Below are positions 3,654 to 16,373 of a DNA stretch of 32,641 nt, piece by piece. This DNA is from Candidatus Woesearchaeota archaeon (lineage in GTDB: Archaea > Nanobdellota > Nanobdellia > SCGC-AAA011-G17 > GW2011-AR20). The translations under genes and the position numbers were made by a program. The number at the start of each line of letters is the position of its first letter. Position 1 is the first letter of the stretch. The DNA lies in contig JAGVZQ010000017.1 in assembly GCA_018302465.1 (NCBI GenBank), forward strand, positions 1 through 32,641. The letters are read 5' to 3'. The notes under the pieces were generated by a model. That model searched no databases. It was not told the origin of the DNA and worked only from the letters and a program-made list of their open reading frames with translations.

Positions 3654-5447
3654 GTGGTATTAAAAAGAAGTAGGAAAAAGAATATAATTAAAAATCTGTT
3701 AAGTATTTTATTCACAGCAGTTATCATTTCTCTTTTGATTTTAGCAGGTCCTGTAAGAGCTATTAGTGTTAACTTAGACATAGAAGATATTGACATAAGC
3801 ACAGAAACAGAAAAAGAATTTACCTTAAAAGTTAACTACAATGATGGAGAAACCCCGCATATCAGTCAGATAGATTTAAAATTTAATAATGAGGTAACCT
3901 GTCAGGTAAATAATGATATAGTCTCAGGTTGTAACTTTTTAGAATTTAAAAATAAAGAAGTTTCAGGTTTCTCACCAGGATTTGGGTATGGCTACGGTTA
4001 CGGCTATGGATACGGATACGGGTATGGTTATGGCAGTACTTTCACAACCTCAGGCTCAGTTACATATACCTTCTTAATTAAAACCCCTTTACTTCCTTCA
4101 TCCTTCATAGGGAATGAAATAGACATAGAAGCTGTAATAACAAATAATAACCAGTTAATAACAGAATCAGAATCTATAACAATAACACAGTCACAAGCAA
4201 ACATAGATGAAATCTTAGTAGATGAAGCATATAATGCTCTAACAACTAAAAGAGTATTAAACGGAAATCCTTCATTGGATAAAATTGTAAGTAATGTATA
4301 CCTTCCTGAAAACTTGAAAAGCTTGGAAAGCGTCTCAATTTCCTGGGAATCAAATAACACTAATGTAGTCTCATTAAACGGCTCAGTTACAAGAAATTCA
4401 GTAGACAAAGATGTAAAGTTAACATCAACAATAAAGAAAGGTTTAAGTGAAAAAACAAAAGTTTTCGAAGTTACAGTCAAAAAAACAATACCTCCGGCAG
4501 TAGTAGATAACACAACTGGAAAAATAGATGTAACAAATCCAGATGAAGATATTGTTATTGACCAGTCTAATGTAAATAATTTAAAAGAAATTGAAATTAA
4601 TGATGATGGAGAAAAACCAGTAGTATTAAACTTGATGTCATTGGTAACAGTAAATAAAACATTAAACTTGAGCACTAATAAATTAACATTAACAAGAAAT
4701 ACCGGCTCTGTAACATACTCAGTAGAAATACCTCTTGGAACAATAATCCAGGGCAATGATGACTGGAACGGTTTAATCACATTGCCGACAGTGAAAGAAA
4801 ATTCAGGAAAGAATGTAACTAACGGAAATGCAGAATTAGTAATTGAAGTTGGAAGTGAAAATGTAATGCTGACATTTGATAAATCTGTTAAAATAACATT
4901 GCCAAATCAGGCAGGGAAGAACGCAGGTTACATATTTAATGAAGCATTCAATGAAATAACTGCATGCTCAGCCTCAGAATTAGCAGATCCAAACAGCATA
5001 GTAAGTGAGGGGGATTGTTATACAACATCAGGAGCAGACATGATAGTATGGACTAAACACTTCACTGAATTCGTTTCATACACTCCAACATCTTCAAGCC
5101 CATCAAGTGGAGGAAGTACAAGCAGTGCTGGAATTTCATCTGGAGGAAGCTCAAATATCTACTCACCAAATCCCCCTCAGGAAATAGAAGAAGAGATTAT
5201 AGAAGAACAACCTGTAATACCAGAAGAAGCTCCAATAGCAGAAACACCACAGCAGGAAGAACAAAAAGGATTCTTCAATGCCTTAACAGGTGCAGTAATA
5301 GGTGGTATAGGAAGTGTCAAAGAGTTCTTGCCAGTAGCTGCAGGTATATTAATCATAGGTGGATTCCTTGGTCTTTACTACAGAAATAAAAAGATTGAAG
5401 AGCAGAAAAGAAAAGAAGAAATAGAAAAAATGATGAAAAAAGAATAA
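3654..5447 (+). CDS. Secreted, C-terminally membrane-anchored surface protein with (GY)n tract and Ig-like repeat region
   Basis: N-terminal signal/TM segment, GYGYGYGYGYGYGYGYG tract, Ig-like region (ISWESNNTNVVSLNGSVT), Ser/Gly- and Glu/Pro-rich linker, C-terminal TM (FLPVAAGILIIGGFLGLYY) plus charged tail. GTG start. Confidence 0.75.
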   Translation: MVLKRSRKKNIIKNLLSILFTAVIISLLILAGPVRAISVNLDIEDIDISTETEKEFTLKVNYNDGETPHISQIDLKFNNEVTCQVNNDIVSGCNFLEFKNKEVSGFSPGFGYGYGYGYGYGYGYGYGSTFTTSGSVTYTFLIKTPLLPSSFIGNEIDIEAVITNNNQLITESESITITQSQANIDEILVDEAYNALTTKRVLNGNPSLDKIVSNVYLPENLKSLESVSISWESNNTNVVSLNGSVTRNSVDKDVKLTSTIKKGLSEKTKVFEVTVKKTIPPAVVDNTTGKIDVTNPDEDIVIDQSNVNNLKEIEINDDGEKPVVLNLMSLVTVNKTLNLSTNKLTLTRNTGSVTYSVEIPLGTIIQGNDDWNGLITLPTVKENSGKNVTNGNAELVIEVGSENVMLTFDKSVKITLPNQAGKNAGYIFNEAFNEITACSASELADPNSIVSEGDCYTTSGADMIVWTKHFTEFVSYTPTSSSPSSGGSTSSAGISSGGSSNIYSPNPPQEIEEEIIEEQPVIPEEAPIAETPQQEEQKGFFNALTGAVIGGIGSVKEFLPVAAGILIIGGFLGLYYRNKKIEEQKRKEEIEKMMKKE

Positions 5448-7787: not shown

Positions 7788-8213
7788 ATGTTGAGTCAAG
7801 AAGAACTAGAAGGGGAAGCACGGTACCTTAACCAGGCTATAGGCTCAAACAATAGGTTTTATGATGCTATGAATGCACCAGACCCACTAGATTTATTAGA
7901 AGCTTCAAGAACGGCATATTATGATTTAACCTCAGCCCTTATTTCATTAGACAGGTTAGAATTGCACGGAGTATCAATAGATCCAAGGGAAGGATGTGAA
8001 AATACAGACCTCAGAAGCTTACTTGAGTCAAGACTAATATTCCTTGTTTATGTAGCTGTAAGTGAAGATATAGATCCAGGGATGAAAACTAAATTATTGC
8101 AAACACCGTGGGGAAAGAAAGCAAGAAATCCAGAATACACAAGAAAATTATTTGAAGGCGACTCCGCAATGGAAGAAATCCATGAAATAAGAAAAACCTT
8201 AGACTTAGATTAA
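7788..8213 (+). CDS. Hypothetical protein
   Basis: 141-aa, predicted helical ORF; stop codon lies 2 nt before the tRNA-like repeat at 8216. Confidence 0.5.
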   Translation: MLSQEELEGEARYLNQAIGSNNRFYDAMNAPDPLDLLEASRTAYYDLTSALISLDRLELHGVSIDPREGCENTDLRSLLESRLIFLVYVAVSEDIDPGMKTKLLQTPWGKKARNPEYTRKLFEGDSAMEEIHEIRKTLDLD

Positions 8214-8215
8214 TT

Positions 8216-8232
8216 TTGCGGGAACTAGAATT
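8216..8232. repeat. Copy of the 3' end of tRNA-Leu (att-like direct repeat, left)
   Basis: TTGCGGGAACTAGAATT versus TTGCGGGAACTAGGATT at 9248-9264: 16/17 identity, same orientation. Confidence 0.75.
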
Positions 8233-8256
8233 TAACAGAAACATTTAAATACCAGT

Positions 8257-8274
8257 TGATAATATAAATTATCA
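8257..8274. promoter_or_regulatory. Palindromic operator candidate immediately upstream of the MNT start codon
   Basis: TGATAAT-ATAA-ATTATCA: perfect 7-nt arms, 1 nt before ATG at 8276; TATA-like TTTAAAT just upstream at 8244-8250. Confidence 0.55.
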
Positions 8275-8275
8275 T

Positions 8276-8803
8276 ATGAAAAATAATAATATCAAAGATA
8301 AAATAAAAGAATACTTTTTCTTAAATCCTACTATAAAATTAAGAGTAAGGCAAATAGAAAGAATTGTAAAAGTTCCTTTGCCTTCAGTAATCAGATATAC
8401 AAAAGAATTAGAAAAAGAAAGTATACTCACTAGTTCTGAAATTGCCAATATAAGGGTATTTTTAGCCAACAGAGCTTCAAAACAATTTTTATTAGAGAAG
8501 AGGCTATTTAATATAAAAAATATCTCCACACTAACAGATTTTCTCATAGAAGAATTAAGCAATCCAAATATTGTAATTTTTGGTTCATACTCCAAGGGGG
8601 AAGATTTAGAAAATTCAGACATTGACATTTATATAGAAACAGCTTCAAAAAAGAAACTTAATCTGGAGAAATTTGAAAAACTATTACAGAGGAAAATACA
8701 TGTTTTTGTTTATAAAAATATTAATACTATTGAAAACAAGGAATTAGCTAATAATATTTTAAATGGGATCATAATTAACGGATTTGTAGAGGTGTTTAAA
8801 TGA
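8276..8803 (+). CDS. MNT-type nucleotidyltransferase with N-terminal winged-HTH (putative antitoxin)
   Basis: IFGSYSKGEDLENSDIDIYI = GSx10DxD nucleotidyltransferase motif; N-terminal VRQIERIVKVPLPSVIRYTKELEKESIL resembles a wHTH. Confidence 0.8.
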   Translation: MKNNNIKDKIKEYFFLNPTIKLRVRQIERIVKVPLPSVIRYTKELEKESILTSSEIANIRVFLANRASKQFLLEKRLFNIKNISTLTDFLIEELSNPNIVIFGSYSKGEDLENSDIDIYIETASKKKLNLEKFEKLLQRKIHVFVYKNINTIENKELANNILNGIIINGFVEVFK

Positions 8804-9222
8804 AAGAAAGCTCATGGAAAGATTGTATTGAAAGTAATTCATCTATTTCAGTAAGTAAGGATAAAGCTAAAGCTAAATCATTAATTGATACTGCTTCTGG
8901 AAGAAATCAATTTTTAAGCAGGAATAAAATAGATGAAAATAATGCCAATTATATTTTTGAGGGTTATTATTCCTCTCTTGTAGAATTAATGCATGCTTTG
9001 GTTTTGCTTAACGGCTATAAAGTTGGAAATCATATTTGTTTAGGTTTCTATTTAAGAGACGTTATGAATAAAGATAGTCTATTTAGAATTTTTGATGACT
9101 GCAGGTTTAAGAGAAACTCTTTAGTTTATTATGGAAGAAAGATGGATTTTGAAACTGCCAAAGAAGCTGTTAAAAGATGTAAAGAATTAATTAAAGAAAT
9201 TAACAAAATGCTTGAAAAATAA
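8800..9222 (+). CDS. HEPN-like protein (putative partner of MNT)
   Basis: 140-aa helical protein overlapping MNT by ATGA; C-terminal RNSLVYYGRKMDFETAKEAVKRCKELIKEI resembles the HEPN RN....YYG region. Confidence 0.65.
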   Translation: MKESSWKDCIESNSSISVSKDKAKAKSLIDTASGRNQFLSRNKIDENNANYIFEGYYSSLVELMHALVLLNGYKVGNHICLGFYLRDVMNKDSLFRIFDDCRFKRNSLVYYGRKMDFETAKEAVKRCKELIKEINKMLEK

Positions 9223-9247
9223 TACTCCCTCTATACTTTAAGACATA

Positions 9248-9264
9248 TTGCGGGAACTAGGATT
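9248..9264. repeat. tRNA-Leu 3' end (att-like direct repeat, right)
   Basis: TTGCGGGAACTAGGATT; pairs with the copy at 8216-8232. Confidence 0.75.
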
Positions 9265-9353
9265 CGAACCTAGGTAGACACTAAGTCACATGGTCCTTAG
9301 CTTGGCAGTTTTTTGCAAAACTCATGCCCGTTTGACCACTCCGGCATTCCCGC
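9250..9353 (-). tRNA. tRNA-Leu, probably intron-containing (anticodon UAA tentative)
   Basis: Acceptor GCGGGAA/TTCCCGC, D-loop with GTGGTCAAA, T-arm CTAGG-TTCGAAT-CCTAG, A73, long variable arm; ~104 nt before A73, and the anticodon arm only closes if ~18-19 nt are removed. Confidence 0.75.
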
Positions 9354-9382: not shown

Positions 9383-10159
9383 TTACTTTGCTTTAGAAAA
9401 ACTCTTTTCAAAATCTATTAATTTCTTATCTAAAATATCTAAAGCAGTCATAACAATTTCTTTTGGTTCTAATTGCCCCCAGCTTTCTAAGAAAAATATA
9501 AATTTAGTATCGCTGTAGTTTATCTTAACTCCATTCTCCTCGCAAAACTGCTCGCATGCATCATTCCATTTCATAAAATCAGTAATCTCAACTTTGTCTC
9601 CTTTCTCAACTAATAGACCTTTGCACAATTTAATAGCTTCTTTAGCTTTACTTTTATTCTCAATATTAAATTCAGGATATCCTTTATAGTAAATATGACC
9701 TGGGCTGAATTTCATGTGCTCTTTTCCTCTTCCCAAAACAGCAGTAGCAACAAATTCTAATTTCTGCCCCTTATTTAATTCAACAATAGGAATCTCAGCA
9801 ATAGCAGGTTTAATTTTAGGATCTTTGCTATCAATATCTTTAGAATAGACCATGCCCTCTTCTTTCAAAAATAAAAACAATTCGACCTGGCATAGCGCGC
9901 ATCCCTCTCCTTTACATTTACATTCATCAGGTAAATTATAAGATTTTAAATCAGTAGTTAAAGGAACTAACCCAAGTCTATGAGAAAGAATTTCATCAAA
10001 TAAAGCTGAACTGTTCTTTCTGAATTCAACTTCTTTTATTGCCATAACCGGGACTTCAACAAAGATTGTTCTTCTAAGAGTATTTGCTATTACAGGATTA
10101 ATATTATCAATAGTAAAAACAAGTTCATTCTCTGATTTATTTATAACTTCTACTTTCAT
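9383..10159 (-). CDS. rpoD: DNA-directed RNA polymerase subunit D
   Basis: NPVIANTLRRTIFVEVPVMAIKEVEF...LSHRLGLVPL...DECKCKGEGCALCQVELFL matches archaeal RpoD/Rpb3. Confidence 0.95.
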   Translation of the reverse strand: MKVEVINKSENELVFTIDNINPVIANTLRRTIFVEVPVMAIKEVEFRKNSSALFDEILSHRLGLVPLTTDLKSYNLPDECKCKGEGCALCQVELFLFLKEEGMVYSKDIDSKDPKIKPAIAEIPIVELNKGQKLEFVATAVLGRGKEHMKFSPGHIYYKGYPEFNIENKSKAKEAIKLCKGLLVEKGDKVEITDFMKWNDACEQFCEENGVKINYSDTKFIFFLESWGQLEPKEIVMTALDILDKKLIDFEKSFSKAK

Positions 10160-13539: not shown

Positions 13540-13788
13540 TTAAAAGCTCAAAACACTGATAGAAAAAGGTTTTTTGCATATAACTCCGAGTTCCTCATTA
13601 GTCTCTTTTACTTTATTCAATTTTGCATTAAACACTTTGCAGTAATGCTCTATATCTCCTCTAACCTCTTCAGGACAGTTGCTGGAGATGTAAACATTTT
13701 TTACCTCTCCCTTCTTTAATTTCTTTAGAGTTTTCTCTGTCCCAACTACTATTTTTCCTTCTTTCAAAGCTTCTCTTAAATCTTTCAT
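13540..13788 (-). CDS. rpl30e: Ribosomal protein L30e
   Basis: L7Ae/L30e-type KIVVGTEKTLKKLKKGEVKNVYISSNCPEEVRGDIEHYC; conserved synteny after rpoA2. Confidence 0.85.
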   Translation of the reverse strand: MKDLREALKEGKIVVGTEKTLKKLKKGEVKNVYISSNCPEEVRGDIEHYCKVFNAKLNKVKETNEELGVICKKPFSISVLSF

Positions 13789-16373
13789 TTTTTCATATCC
13801 CTTATTTTAGCAATTAAACTTGGTAATCCTGTTCCAACAGGTATTTCCTGGTTTAACATTACGTTCTCAATTACTGAATTTAATTTATCTTCCTCTCCCT
13901 TAAGAGTTGCATTAACTATATGTTTTATAGGCGTTTCAAAACTGGCTCTTGCCAGCACACTTTCTTTCTCACCAGTTATACCGCTTCTTGTTATACCTTT
14001 TATAGATCCAACAGAGGTCATAACATCTGCTAATAACATAATATGTCTTATATCTATATCTAGCCCTTGATTTTCAATAACTTCAATTGCTTCATTCATT
14101 ATTGCTTGTCTTGCTGCTTCAACCCCAAGTATAGTTTGTGTCATAAACACATCATTTGTTACTGTCTTTTTAAAATCCACACCCTCTACATTCATTACAT
14201 CTTTAAGATTATTACCAACGCATATAATTATAAATTCATTATCCCTCTTTATAGGCAATACTTGTTTTATTCCTTTAACTCCTTTAGTATGAAGTTCCCT
14301 TACCTTTTCTCTTAATTGATATAACTCTTTTAATTCAAACTGCTCTGCTTTTAGTTTTATAGATATGAAATCCTTGTTTGCTCTCACATCAATATTTTTT
14401 AAAGAATCACCTATTATTTTTACAAGCTGCGCTTCAGTAATAACAAAATCTTTCATCTTCAGTTTGTTAAGATAAATTTCTATTCTTGACTGGGACATAT
14501 TTACAGAAAACTCATCAACAACTTCTGCTAGTTTAGTTTCTTTAATAGTAGCTGCAACTTTCTTTACTTTAACTGGATCTTTTGCAATTTCTTTGTCTAA
14601 ATGAACTTCTATTCTCGGAGTGCTTGGCTCTTTTCTCGCATCTAACAACTCAATAAGTCTTGGCAGACCTAATGTAACAGCAACTTCAGCAACACCTGCA
14701 AAGTGGAATACATTTAATGTGTTATGAGTTATAACTCCTTCAAATGTGGTAAATGTTTCCAACCCCGGAACAGACAAATCATATACAAAACCGTCATTCT
14801 GAACCTGCTCAATTTTCTCTATTGCATCCCAGACAACATCAGAATTAAACATTCTGTTCATAACGACTAATTCATTGGAAATATCAACATTATTTTCTTT
14901 AGATAATAATTCAAATTTCTTGATATATCTGAATAAAGCAGTTCTCCCTATTTTTTGCCTCTTAGTAAAGTTATTGACATACCTCGTGCTCATTCCGACT
15001 TTTTTGGCAGTATCATAGAATAAATTTCCAAATCCTGAAATCATATCTGTATAATCCTGGGAAGTTTCATTCCAAAATTTCCTGGCCATTCCAGCTAGTT
15101 TCTCCAAATCTTCTCTTTTATATTCTATATCGCTTCCAATATATTGCAAAAATAGCGGAGCATACTTGTAAGGAATTAGTAGCCAGTATTGATTATCTTC
15201 AGTTTTATAAGAAAAAATGTTAAACCTATTTAAAAGTAAAGCTATACCGTCTCTTAATTCTCTAGAATTAGAAGAAACTCTGATCATTTTCCCAGACACA
15301 TGAAAATTTGCATCTCCATCAAAATATCCTTTTAATAGCCCAGAGACAAATTCTTCTTCAGCACTATAAGCAAATTCAGGAACAATTTTCATTGCTGAAC
15401 CAGTTTTGCATGAATTTATTAAGAAATTTGCTAATAGAGAAGAATTTATCTTTAAATCTCTTGAAAGAGAAAATCCTCTTTGATTATACTCTTCTTTATA
15501 TCTTAAGTTTAAAAAAGAAACGAATTCCTTAGCGTTATTCATAAAATTATCATCCATATTAGATAATGAAACTTGCCCATTTGTAGCATTGCCTTCAGCT
15601 AAATAAGCCCCAATAAACCATCCGAATTTATTATCTAATTTTATAACATCAGGTATGCGCTTTGAATGTGTCTTTTCCCTAAACAATAATCCGTTATCCT
15701 CTATCAATTTAAATCTCGAATTCTCAGAAATTTTAATATAGTCGGATGTTTTAATCTCCTTAATACAGTGTTCTGGAAGATATTTAATAACAGGTATCCT
15801 GTCTCCGACATTTAAAATTTTTCCCATAATTGGAACTATTTGATTATCCTTCCTTACAACAAAAGAATGGTTATCCGTTGCTGTTATCTCTCTTCCAGAA
15901 GAAGTTGTCAATTTCATTAAATTTTTTTTGCATTTATGCCTGCTGCACTCAACAACTTTTTTCCATTCAATTTTTTCTTCCTGATTTATGCTTGGAACAT
16001 AAAGTTCATAATCATTTAAAGGAAGTATTTCAGTGTTATTAAAGCTAAAAGCGCCATTTGCATTCATTAAACCATCTAAAAATTCTCCAATTCTAACAAT
16101 CTTTATCCTGTCTTTAATTTTTATAATTATTCTCTCATTCTTTGAAAGACTCATCTGTGTACCTGGCTCACCAATACTTTCAGCAGTAACAATTCCTATT
16201 GCTTCTCCTGGGCTTATTTTTGAACTTTCAAATGAATCCCTGACTCTGTCTAATACTTTCTTTACTTGATCCCCTTTGAGCTTGTTATCTTCTACTCCTT
16301 TTCTAACTTCGTCTAGTAATTTCTGATGAAGTTCTGGATATTCATCATATATCGATTTAGCCATATGTCGCAA
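13785..16373 (-). CDS. rpoA2: DNA-directed RNA polymerase subunit A'' with intein
   Basis: Exteins AIGIVTAESIGEPGTQM / TLNVFHFAGVAEVAVTLGLPRLIELLDARKEPSTP are diagnostic of A''; interrupted by a 477-aa intein. Start MAKSIYDEYPEL (16364) possible. Confidence 0.96.
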   Translation of the reverse strand: MRHMAKSIYDEYPELHQKLLDEVRKGVEDNKLKGDQVKKVLDRVRDSFESSKISPGEAIGIVTAESIGEPGTQMSLSKNERIIIKIKDRIKIVRIGEFLDGLMNANGAFSFNNTEILPLNDYELYVPSINQEEKIEWKKVVECSRHKCKKNLMKLTTSSGREITATDNHSFVVRKDNQIVPIMGKILNVGDRIPVIKYLPEHCIKEIKTSDYIKISENSRFKLIEDNGLLFREKTHSKRIPDVIKLDNKFGWFIGAYLAEGNATNGQVSLSNMDDNFMNNAKEFVSFLNLRYKEEYNQRGFSLSRDLKINSSLLANFLINSCKTGSAMKIVPEFAYSAEEEFVSGLLKGYFDGDANFHVSGKMIRVSSNSRELRDGIALLLNRFNIFSYKTEDNQYWLLIPYKYAPLFLQYIGSDIEYKREDLEKLAGMARKFWNETSQDYTDMISGFGNLFYDTAKKVGMSTRYVNNFTKRQKIGRTALFRYIKKFELLSKENNVDISNELVVMNRMFNSDVVWDAIEKIEQVQNDGFVYDLSVPGLETFTTFEGVITHNTLNVFHFAGVAEVAVTLGLPRLIELLDARKEPSTPRIEVHLDKEIAKDPVKVKKVAATIKETKLAEVVDEFSVNMSQSRIEIYLNKLKMKDFVITEAQLVKIIGDSLKNIDVRANKDFISIKLKAEQFELKELYQLREKVRELHTKGVKGIKQVLPIKRDNEFIIICVGNNLKDVMNVEGVDFKKTVTNDVFMTQTILGVEAARQAIMNEAIEVIENQGLDIDIRHIMLLADVMTSVGSIKGITRSGITGEKESVLARASFETPIKHIVNATLKGEEDKLNSVIENVMLNQEIPVGTGLPSLIAKIRDMKK
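14721..16151 (-). mobile_element. Intein with LAGLIDADG homing endonuclease in rpoA2
   Basis: Begins SLSKNERIIIKIK after GEPGTQM, Hint motif TATDNHSFVV, LAGLIDADG-like FIGAYLAEGNA and LLKGYFDGDANF, ends GVITHN followed by T; 1431 nt = 477 codons in frame. Confidence 0.93.

Follow-up and report, generated by a model that had tools for sequence, protein, structure and literature searches.

Type VII toxin-antitoxin systems of the HepT-MntA kind place an HEPN-fold protein beside a minimal nucleotidyltransferase (MNT) with a GSX10DXD motif, both encoded in one overlapping operon, and PADLOC holds a candidate defence system, PDC-M05, described by two models (PDC-M05A and PDC-M05B). It has long been asked how transposase-free toxin-antitoxin pairs spread from one chromosome to another. 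For restriction-modification genes, insertion with long target duplication was reportedly described by Nobusato in 2000 and by Furuta in 2010. Published accounts show that these genes insert with a target duplication that is long and variable (PMC3874152; PMC3031569). The units concerned are bacterial, of a bare addiction type without transposase, and the duplications are of the order of 100 bp. Archaeal elements integrated in tRNA genes (SSV-type and similar), in turn, have a direct repeat of the tRNA 3' end on both sides of the insert.

The window analysed here, a stretch of 32,641 nucleotides from a Candidatus Woesearchaeota archaeon, carries a gene pair reminiscent of each of these systems. 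Our reading, to which we assign a probability of roughly three in four, is that a self-contained HEPN/MNT cassette of ~1.0 kb inserted at the 3' end of a tRNA-Leu gene, duplicating 17 bp and leaving the tRNA intact. The features concerned are:

7788-8213 (+): left-hand neighbour, an ORF of 141 aa without known family, whose stop codon lies 2 bp before the left repeat
8216-8232 (+): left 17-bp repeat copy, a probable duplicate of the tRNA-Leu 3' end, 16/17 identical to 9248-9264
8234-8275 (+): conserved 42-nt cassette leader, sharply bounded on its 5' side and running up to the MNT ATG
8276-8803 (+): predicted MNT antitoxin, 175 aa, N-terminal winged helix-turn-helix and minimal nucleotidyltransferase
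8800-9222 (+): HEPN-fold protein, 140 aa, probable toxin, overlapping the MNT gene by 4 bp
9248-9264 (+): right 17-bp repeat copy, within the intact tRNA-Leu 3' end (sequence match and Rfam tRNA)
9249-9353 (-): tRNA-Leu with a 21-22 nt intron, the insertion target (Rfam RF00005 at 40.6 bits; ARAGORN with introns allowed)
9383-10159 (-): rpoD (RNA polymerase subunit D), right neighbour (Pfam RNA_pol_A_bac and RNA_pol_L)

The gene pair compared with HepT-MntA

The two genes form a probable HEPN/MNT toxin-antitoxin cassette with HEPN as the toxin. In the MNT protein, the GSX10DXD motif reads G103-S104...D115-x-D117, and these four residues are invariant across 43 aligned MNT proteins. The protein matches Pfam NTP_transf_2 at 6e-10 and PADLOC PDC-M05A at 1.1e-12, and a profile search recovered MntA 5yep at 2.5e-4; its AlphaFold model (pLDDT 94.3) has fold matches to MNT antitoxins and winged helix-turn-helix domains. 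The HEPN protein, for which no significant Pfam sequence-family match was found, matches PADLOC PDC-M05B at 7e-6 and is modelled with a pLDDT of 96.7. Foldseek related this model to the HEPN structures 2hsb and 3o10 with a probability of 1.00 and a TM of 0.58-0.67, at an E of only ~0.03; the same two structures head the PDB fold ranking and HepT-type toxins come next.

The gene pair thus has folds that match HepT and MntA structures, and it resembles HepT-MntA without falling fully under that definition. Unlike in the type VII systems, the antitoxin gene comes first and carries an N-terminal winged helix-turn-helix, and the MNT match to NCBIfam MntA (7.7e-6) lies under the curated cut-off. Furthermore, the HEPN protein lacks the RX4-6H RNase motif and has instead RxxRNSxxYYG, with R102, R105, N106, Y110, Y111 and G112 invariant; the position of the motif histidine is taken by an invariant tyrosine in 46 sequences. 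Both proteins match the PDC-M05 models, but PDC-M05 is a database model only, and mobility and leader lie outside its definition.

A short direct repeat joins the cassette to tRNA-Leu

The 17-mers TTGCGGGAACTAGAATT (8216-8232) and TTGCGGGAACTAGGATT (9248-9264) are identical at 16/17 positions, stand in the same orientation and lie 1032 bp apart, in agreement with the preliminary description, which had also assigned the right copy to the tRNA-Leu 3' end. This assignment holds for 16 of the 17 bases, which cover the 3' strand of the T-stem, the acceptor strand and A73, while position 9248 lies one base outside the tRNA. Between the two copies there are the MNT and HEPN genes only, so that the repeat period contains the pair alone, as had been claimed. 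The left copy, which we interpret as a target duplication, stops 2 bp short of position -42, where the conserved leader begins. Its left neighbour, ORF 7788-8213, has no Pfam or NCBIfam match and no relative among 61 related genomes.

The suggested check for further genomic copies of the 17-nt repeat returned none beyond the two in the 748,631-base genome, where its 15-mer core occurs without mismatch at exactly two sites. Under a composition model, ~1e-6 copies of the 17-mer (with at most one mismatch) are expected within 1.1 kb, and 0.0013 in the whole genome. Chance, or a local duplication of the tRNA 3' end unrelated to the cassette, is therefore hardly credible as an explanation: a lone 17-bp repeat with one mismatch is indeed short, yet the expectation is minute, the left copy lies right at the edge of the cassette, and other cassette sites show the same arrangement more often than either of two kinds of control. 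A tRNA-Leu adjoining rpoD is common among relatives. Around 16 other rpoD-adjacent tRNA genes no comparable clean second copy was found nearby; one of them (L010) has a gapped 26-nt match with a score equal to the window's.

The unit that moves

Searches of related genomes and GTDB contigs yielded ~74 relatives of the cassette with MNT proteins 50-71% identical, hosted by Woesearchaeota, Pacearchaeota, Aenigmatarchaeota and other DPANN archaea, with one record titled Methanocellaceae. Where two cassettes are 81-89% identical at the DNA level, their alignment runs only from a point between about -38 and -49 relative to the MNT start codon to approximately the HEPN stop codon, and their flanks are unrelated in the pairs L109/L120, L135/L144, L107/L129, L124/L128, L126/L159 and L145/L152. 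Since near-identical copies thus have only leader, MNT and HEPN in common while their flanks are unrelated, the bare ~1.0-kb cassette is the unit that moves. Flanking sequence is common to the members of two further pairs (L098/L099 and L115/L119), each of which probably goes back to one insertion by descent.

The tree of MNT and HEPN interleaves phyla nearly as thoroughly as shuffled labels would, with 13 changes compared with a shuffled mean of 15.9 and a value as low in 8/200 shuffles, the phylum labels being those of record titles and the bins possibly holding foreign contigs. The cassette has spread through many DPANN archaea as a bare unit without a jumping enzyme of its own. Carriage by viruses was considered and rejected, as no relative of the cassette was found in the viral contigs of the collection searched.

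Direct repeats around other cassettes

Each left flank was compared with its own right flank within 120 bp, and same-span segments of the same loci served as controls. Flanking direct repeats with a score of at least 15 occur at 8/57 cassettes and in 4/855 control segments (Fisher 6e-8), two of the four control matches coming from one tandem array. In an ungapped flank test, only 3/600 mismatched flank pairs reached a score of at least 13. A second set of 47 distant HEPN/MNT pairs gave a similar picture, with repeats at 6/47 as against 7/1500 mismatched pairs (p 8e-7). Besides the 17 bp of the window, the repeats measure 25 bp (L102), 37 bp (L115), 30-40 bp (L119), 58 bp (L128), 25 bp (L147) and 33 bp (L164), and repeats of 87 bp (L118) and 30 bp (L159) lie farther out; overall, direct target duplications span 16 to about 105-118 bp at ~14 loci. 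Many repeat pairs consist of copies only 75-90% identical. The repeats of L131 and L139 were left aside because their reading is ambiguous (the sequence is repetitive locally at L131, and L139 has two natural tRNA-Ser genes), and that of L056 because two cassettes stand there in tandem.

The sequence that is repeated varies from site to site. It corresponds to the 3' ends of tRNA-Leu, hsdS, scpB, hjc and endA, to the 5' ends of purP, trmI and hemK, or to intergenic DNA, target gene names other than rpoD being read from translations, and the duplication keeps the neighbouring gene intact. As 49/57 cassettes have no duplication within 120 bp, either the duplication decays or other insertion routes exist. 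In one genus, a dispersed intergenic repeat of ~55 bp, AAATTAAAACRCATTTACCGTACTTA...TTTTATAAATAA, was seen beside the cassette sites L146, L149 and L215.

Precise unit boundaries together with target duplications could also be the mark of a non-autonomous transposon, moved in trans by a host transposase. Cut-and-paste transposases make target duplications of fixed length, however, and those seen here vary between 16 bp and at least 87 bp; there are no terminal inverted repeats, inverted flank matches stay at background level, and the right flank has no conserved sequence (information content near zero), hence no conserved right end. We regard this explanation as very improbable.

tRNA genes as targets

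In the preliminary description the cassette had been called tRNA-targeted, and a search for it at other tRNA genes had been proposed. A tRNA was detected within 150 bp at 3/71 loci, namely the window, L120 (78 bp from tRNA-Asn) and L139 (between two tRNA-Ser genes), where 0.5-1.1 are expected (P 0.02-0.09). There may be a weak excess, tRNA genes being common safe sites, but it is not the rule: most relatives lie away from tRNA genes, and most targets are protein-gene ends or intergenic DNA. The repeat differs at each site, as it would not with a conserved attachment site. On this census around 71 cassettes, tRNA-specific targeting was rejected, and the original label had to be given up: tRNA-Leu is one target among many, with no tRNA-specific attachment site.

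The same evidence weighs on site-specific integration, according to which an integrase-borne element, or its remnant, would have taken the tRNA-Leu 3' end for its attachment site. In favour of this, the duplication covers exactly the region where such elements usually attach, the left copy is a fragment while the tRNA is intact, and L139 and L120 lie near other tRNA genes. Against this stand the 3/71 loci near tRNA genes, repeats that vary by site and often represent a protein-gene end, and the lack of an integrase in the unit and of relatives in viral contigs. In comparison with SSV-type elements, the unit in the window is small (~1 kb) and without integrase, and its relatives use unrelated targets; neither a shared attachment sequence nor an integrase between the repeats was found. 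Site-specific integration thus seems to us quite improbable.

Empty and occupied sites

At hemK, exact 24-bp copies of AAAATGATATACGAACCAGCTGAA, the start of the gene, enclose a distant-subfamily cassette in genome G074, whereas the congeners G036 and G085 have hemK with a single copy of this start and no cassette; their genomes contain no MNT match anywhere. The last HEPN codons and the stop in G074 are read from the right copy, and the junction therefore lies within the HEPN 3' end. In this distant subfamily hemK provides the one clean empty-site comparison, and it displays what insertion with long target duplication implies, a unit present or absent between congeners and a single target copy in the empty sites.

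Other sites hold different genes in different genomes. The endA 3' end (~105-118 bp) is duplicated in G045, which has a cassette, and in G061, which has a Fic-like gene instead, but not in G033. At the G061 locus (L287, G061:C9), to be compared with L285 (G045:C33), the duplicated endA 3' end is followed by the Fic-like gene and a short stretch resembling an HEPN/MNT leader, which suggests the replacement of one toxin-type gene by another at this scar. At trmI, the insertion is common to G090 and G051. Upstream of trmI in G072 (L282, G072:C27) there is an AbrB/MazF-like pair where these two congeners have the HEPN/MNT cassette, so that G072 offers no empty site; it seems that the trmI 5' end is a hotspot where toxin-antitoxin pairs settle.

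For the window itself, the congener G001 has no cassette and one copy of the tRNA 3' end, with a different neighbour and an assembly gap there; an exact empty site, in which ORF 7788-8213 would abut the tRNA, was thus not found. Joined-flank DNA queries for seven repeat-bearing loci gave neither a self hit nor a useful match in 103 genomes across the order, and a query with the left gene of L115 gave no usable match in the class. In the genus of G020 and G037, cassettes sit at non-orthologous sites with flanks rearranged or replaced, and no clean empty site was found; the insertion at L149, compared with G020, resembles a replacement and not a clean addition.

How the cassette may insert

By analogy, the best reading of these data is that the cassette follows the "insertion with long target duplication" known from restriction-modification genes. 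Those genes are bacterial and their duplications of the order of 100 bp, whereas here it is an HEPN/MNT pair in DPANN archaea with duplications of ~16-118 bp. The window repeat would have arisen in the same way as the flanking duplications at other cassette sites, by insertion without a cassette-encoded transposase: a staggered break, or additive illegitimate recombination, may capture the incoming cassette, and fill-in at the captured break would then duplicate the target. The cassette would be retained because cells losing it are poisoned, MNT presumably nucleotidylating or otherwise neutralising HEPN. The idea of a minimal, integrase-less element, already put forward in the preliminary description, is supported by 81-89% identical cassettes in unrelated flanks, by flanking repeats above control and by the empty hemK sites.

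The main rival route is a Campbell-type or homology-facilitated crossover, which differs from the explanation above in the route of insertion and not in insertion itself. An imported cassette would bring along a short homologous gene end, and a crossover there would leave direct repeats as long as the homology. The many repeat pairs with 75-90% identity are what copies from different species should look like, and the G037 cassette has ~92 bp of left flank resembling that of the G020 site. However, one repeat copy, often free of its gene, would drift regardless; targets of 16-24 bp are shorter than the usual lengths for homologous recombination, and the hemK repeat is an exact 24-mer; furthermore, near-identical cassettes elsewhere bear no trace of the same gene end. 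We consider such a crossover unlikely, albeit worth keeping in mind.

Archaeal toxin-antitoxin pairs would thereby join bacterial restriction-modification genes in showing insertion with long target duplication, in a case where many genomes allow the moving unit to be read directly, together with its ends and the scars of its insertion. These findings favour the view of toxin-antitoxin pairs as selfish modules. The literature we searched, which did not include the primary restriction-modification papers, held no report of such movement for toxin-antitoxin pairs, and it seems not to describe bare cassettes that move with target duplication in DPANN archaea.

The leader and its putative operators

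When 70 leaders were aligned, information content was near zero upstream of -42 and jumped at this position. The leader contains two inverted repeats of the form GATA-N8-TATC, 20 bp apart, which in the window correspond to:

8238-8253 (+): putative operator 1, degenerate GAAA-N8-TACC, 2 mismatches
8258-8273 (+): putative operator 2, GATA-N8-TATC, 0 mismatches, touching the ATG

Operator 1 is without mismatch in 52/70 leaders and operator 2 in 61/70. Operator 1 encloses a TATA-like sequence, which is ATTTAAATA at 8243-8251 in the window and CTTTAAATA in the aligned leaders. Judging from sequence, the MNT winged helix may bind the two operators in its own leader and repress its own promoter, a repression that would concern transcription of a leaderless mRNA. 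The two GATA-N8-TATC sites thus provide a sharp predicted operator in a family for which no characterised member was found. In distant HEPN/MNT subfamilies (L049-L066), a different palindrome adjoins the start codon of MNT in each case, a pattern that co-evolution of operator and winged helix might produce.

A bolder reading would give this leader a part in the movement itself: MNT or HEPN would join in the break or the capture by which the cassette is inserted and the target duplicated, the double GATA-N8-TATC leader serving as an end on one side, and the cassette would be its own mobile element. We think this improbable; if true, HEPN/MNT cassettes across DPANN archaea would form a class of transposase-free selfish elements.

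Further features of the window

Default tRNA scans miss the window tRNA-Leu because of its 21-22 nt intron, and ARAGORN, which finds it only with introns allowed, reads the anticodon as AAG. A34 is unusual in archaeal tRNA-Leu. Across the window (9249-9353) and the loci L008-L036, the rpoD-adjacent tRNA-Leu reads AAG here and in many relatives and GAG in others, and in the congener G001 it lacks the intron of the window copy. The segment 22513-22604 (-) is read as tRNA-Asp without introns and as tRNA-Ser(AGA) with a 17-nt intron once introns are allowed; the latter may be right, and would hence be another A34. The ORF for RNA polymerase subunit A'' (13785-16373, -) has a long insert after EPGTQMSLS, ending VITHNT, which looks like an intein. 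Finally, 3654-5447 (+) encodes a probable membrane-anchored protein of 597 aa with a long run of Gly-Tyr dipeptides (GYGYGY...) in its N-terminal part.
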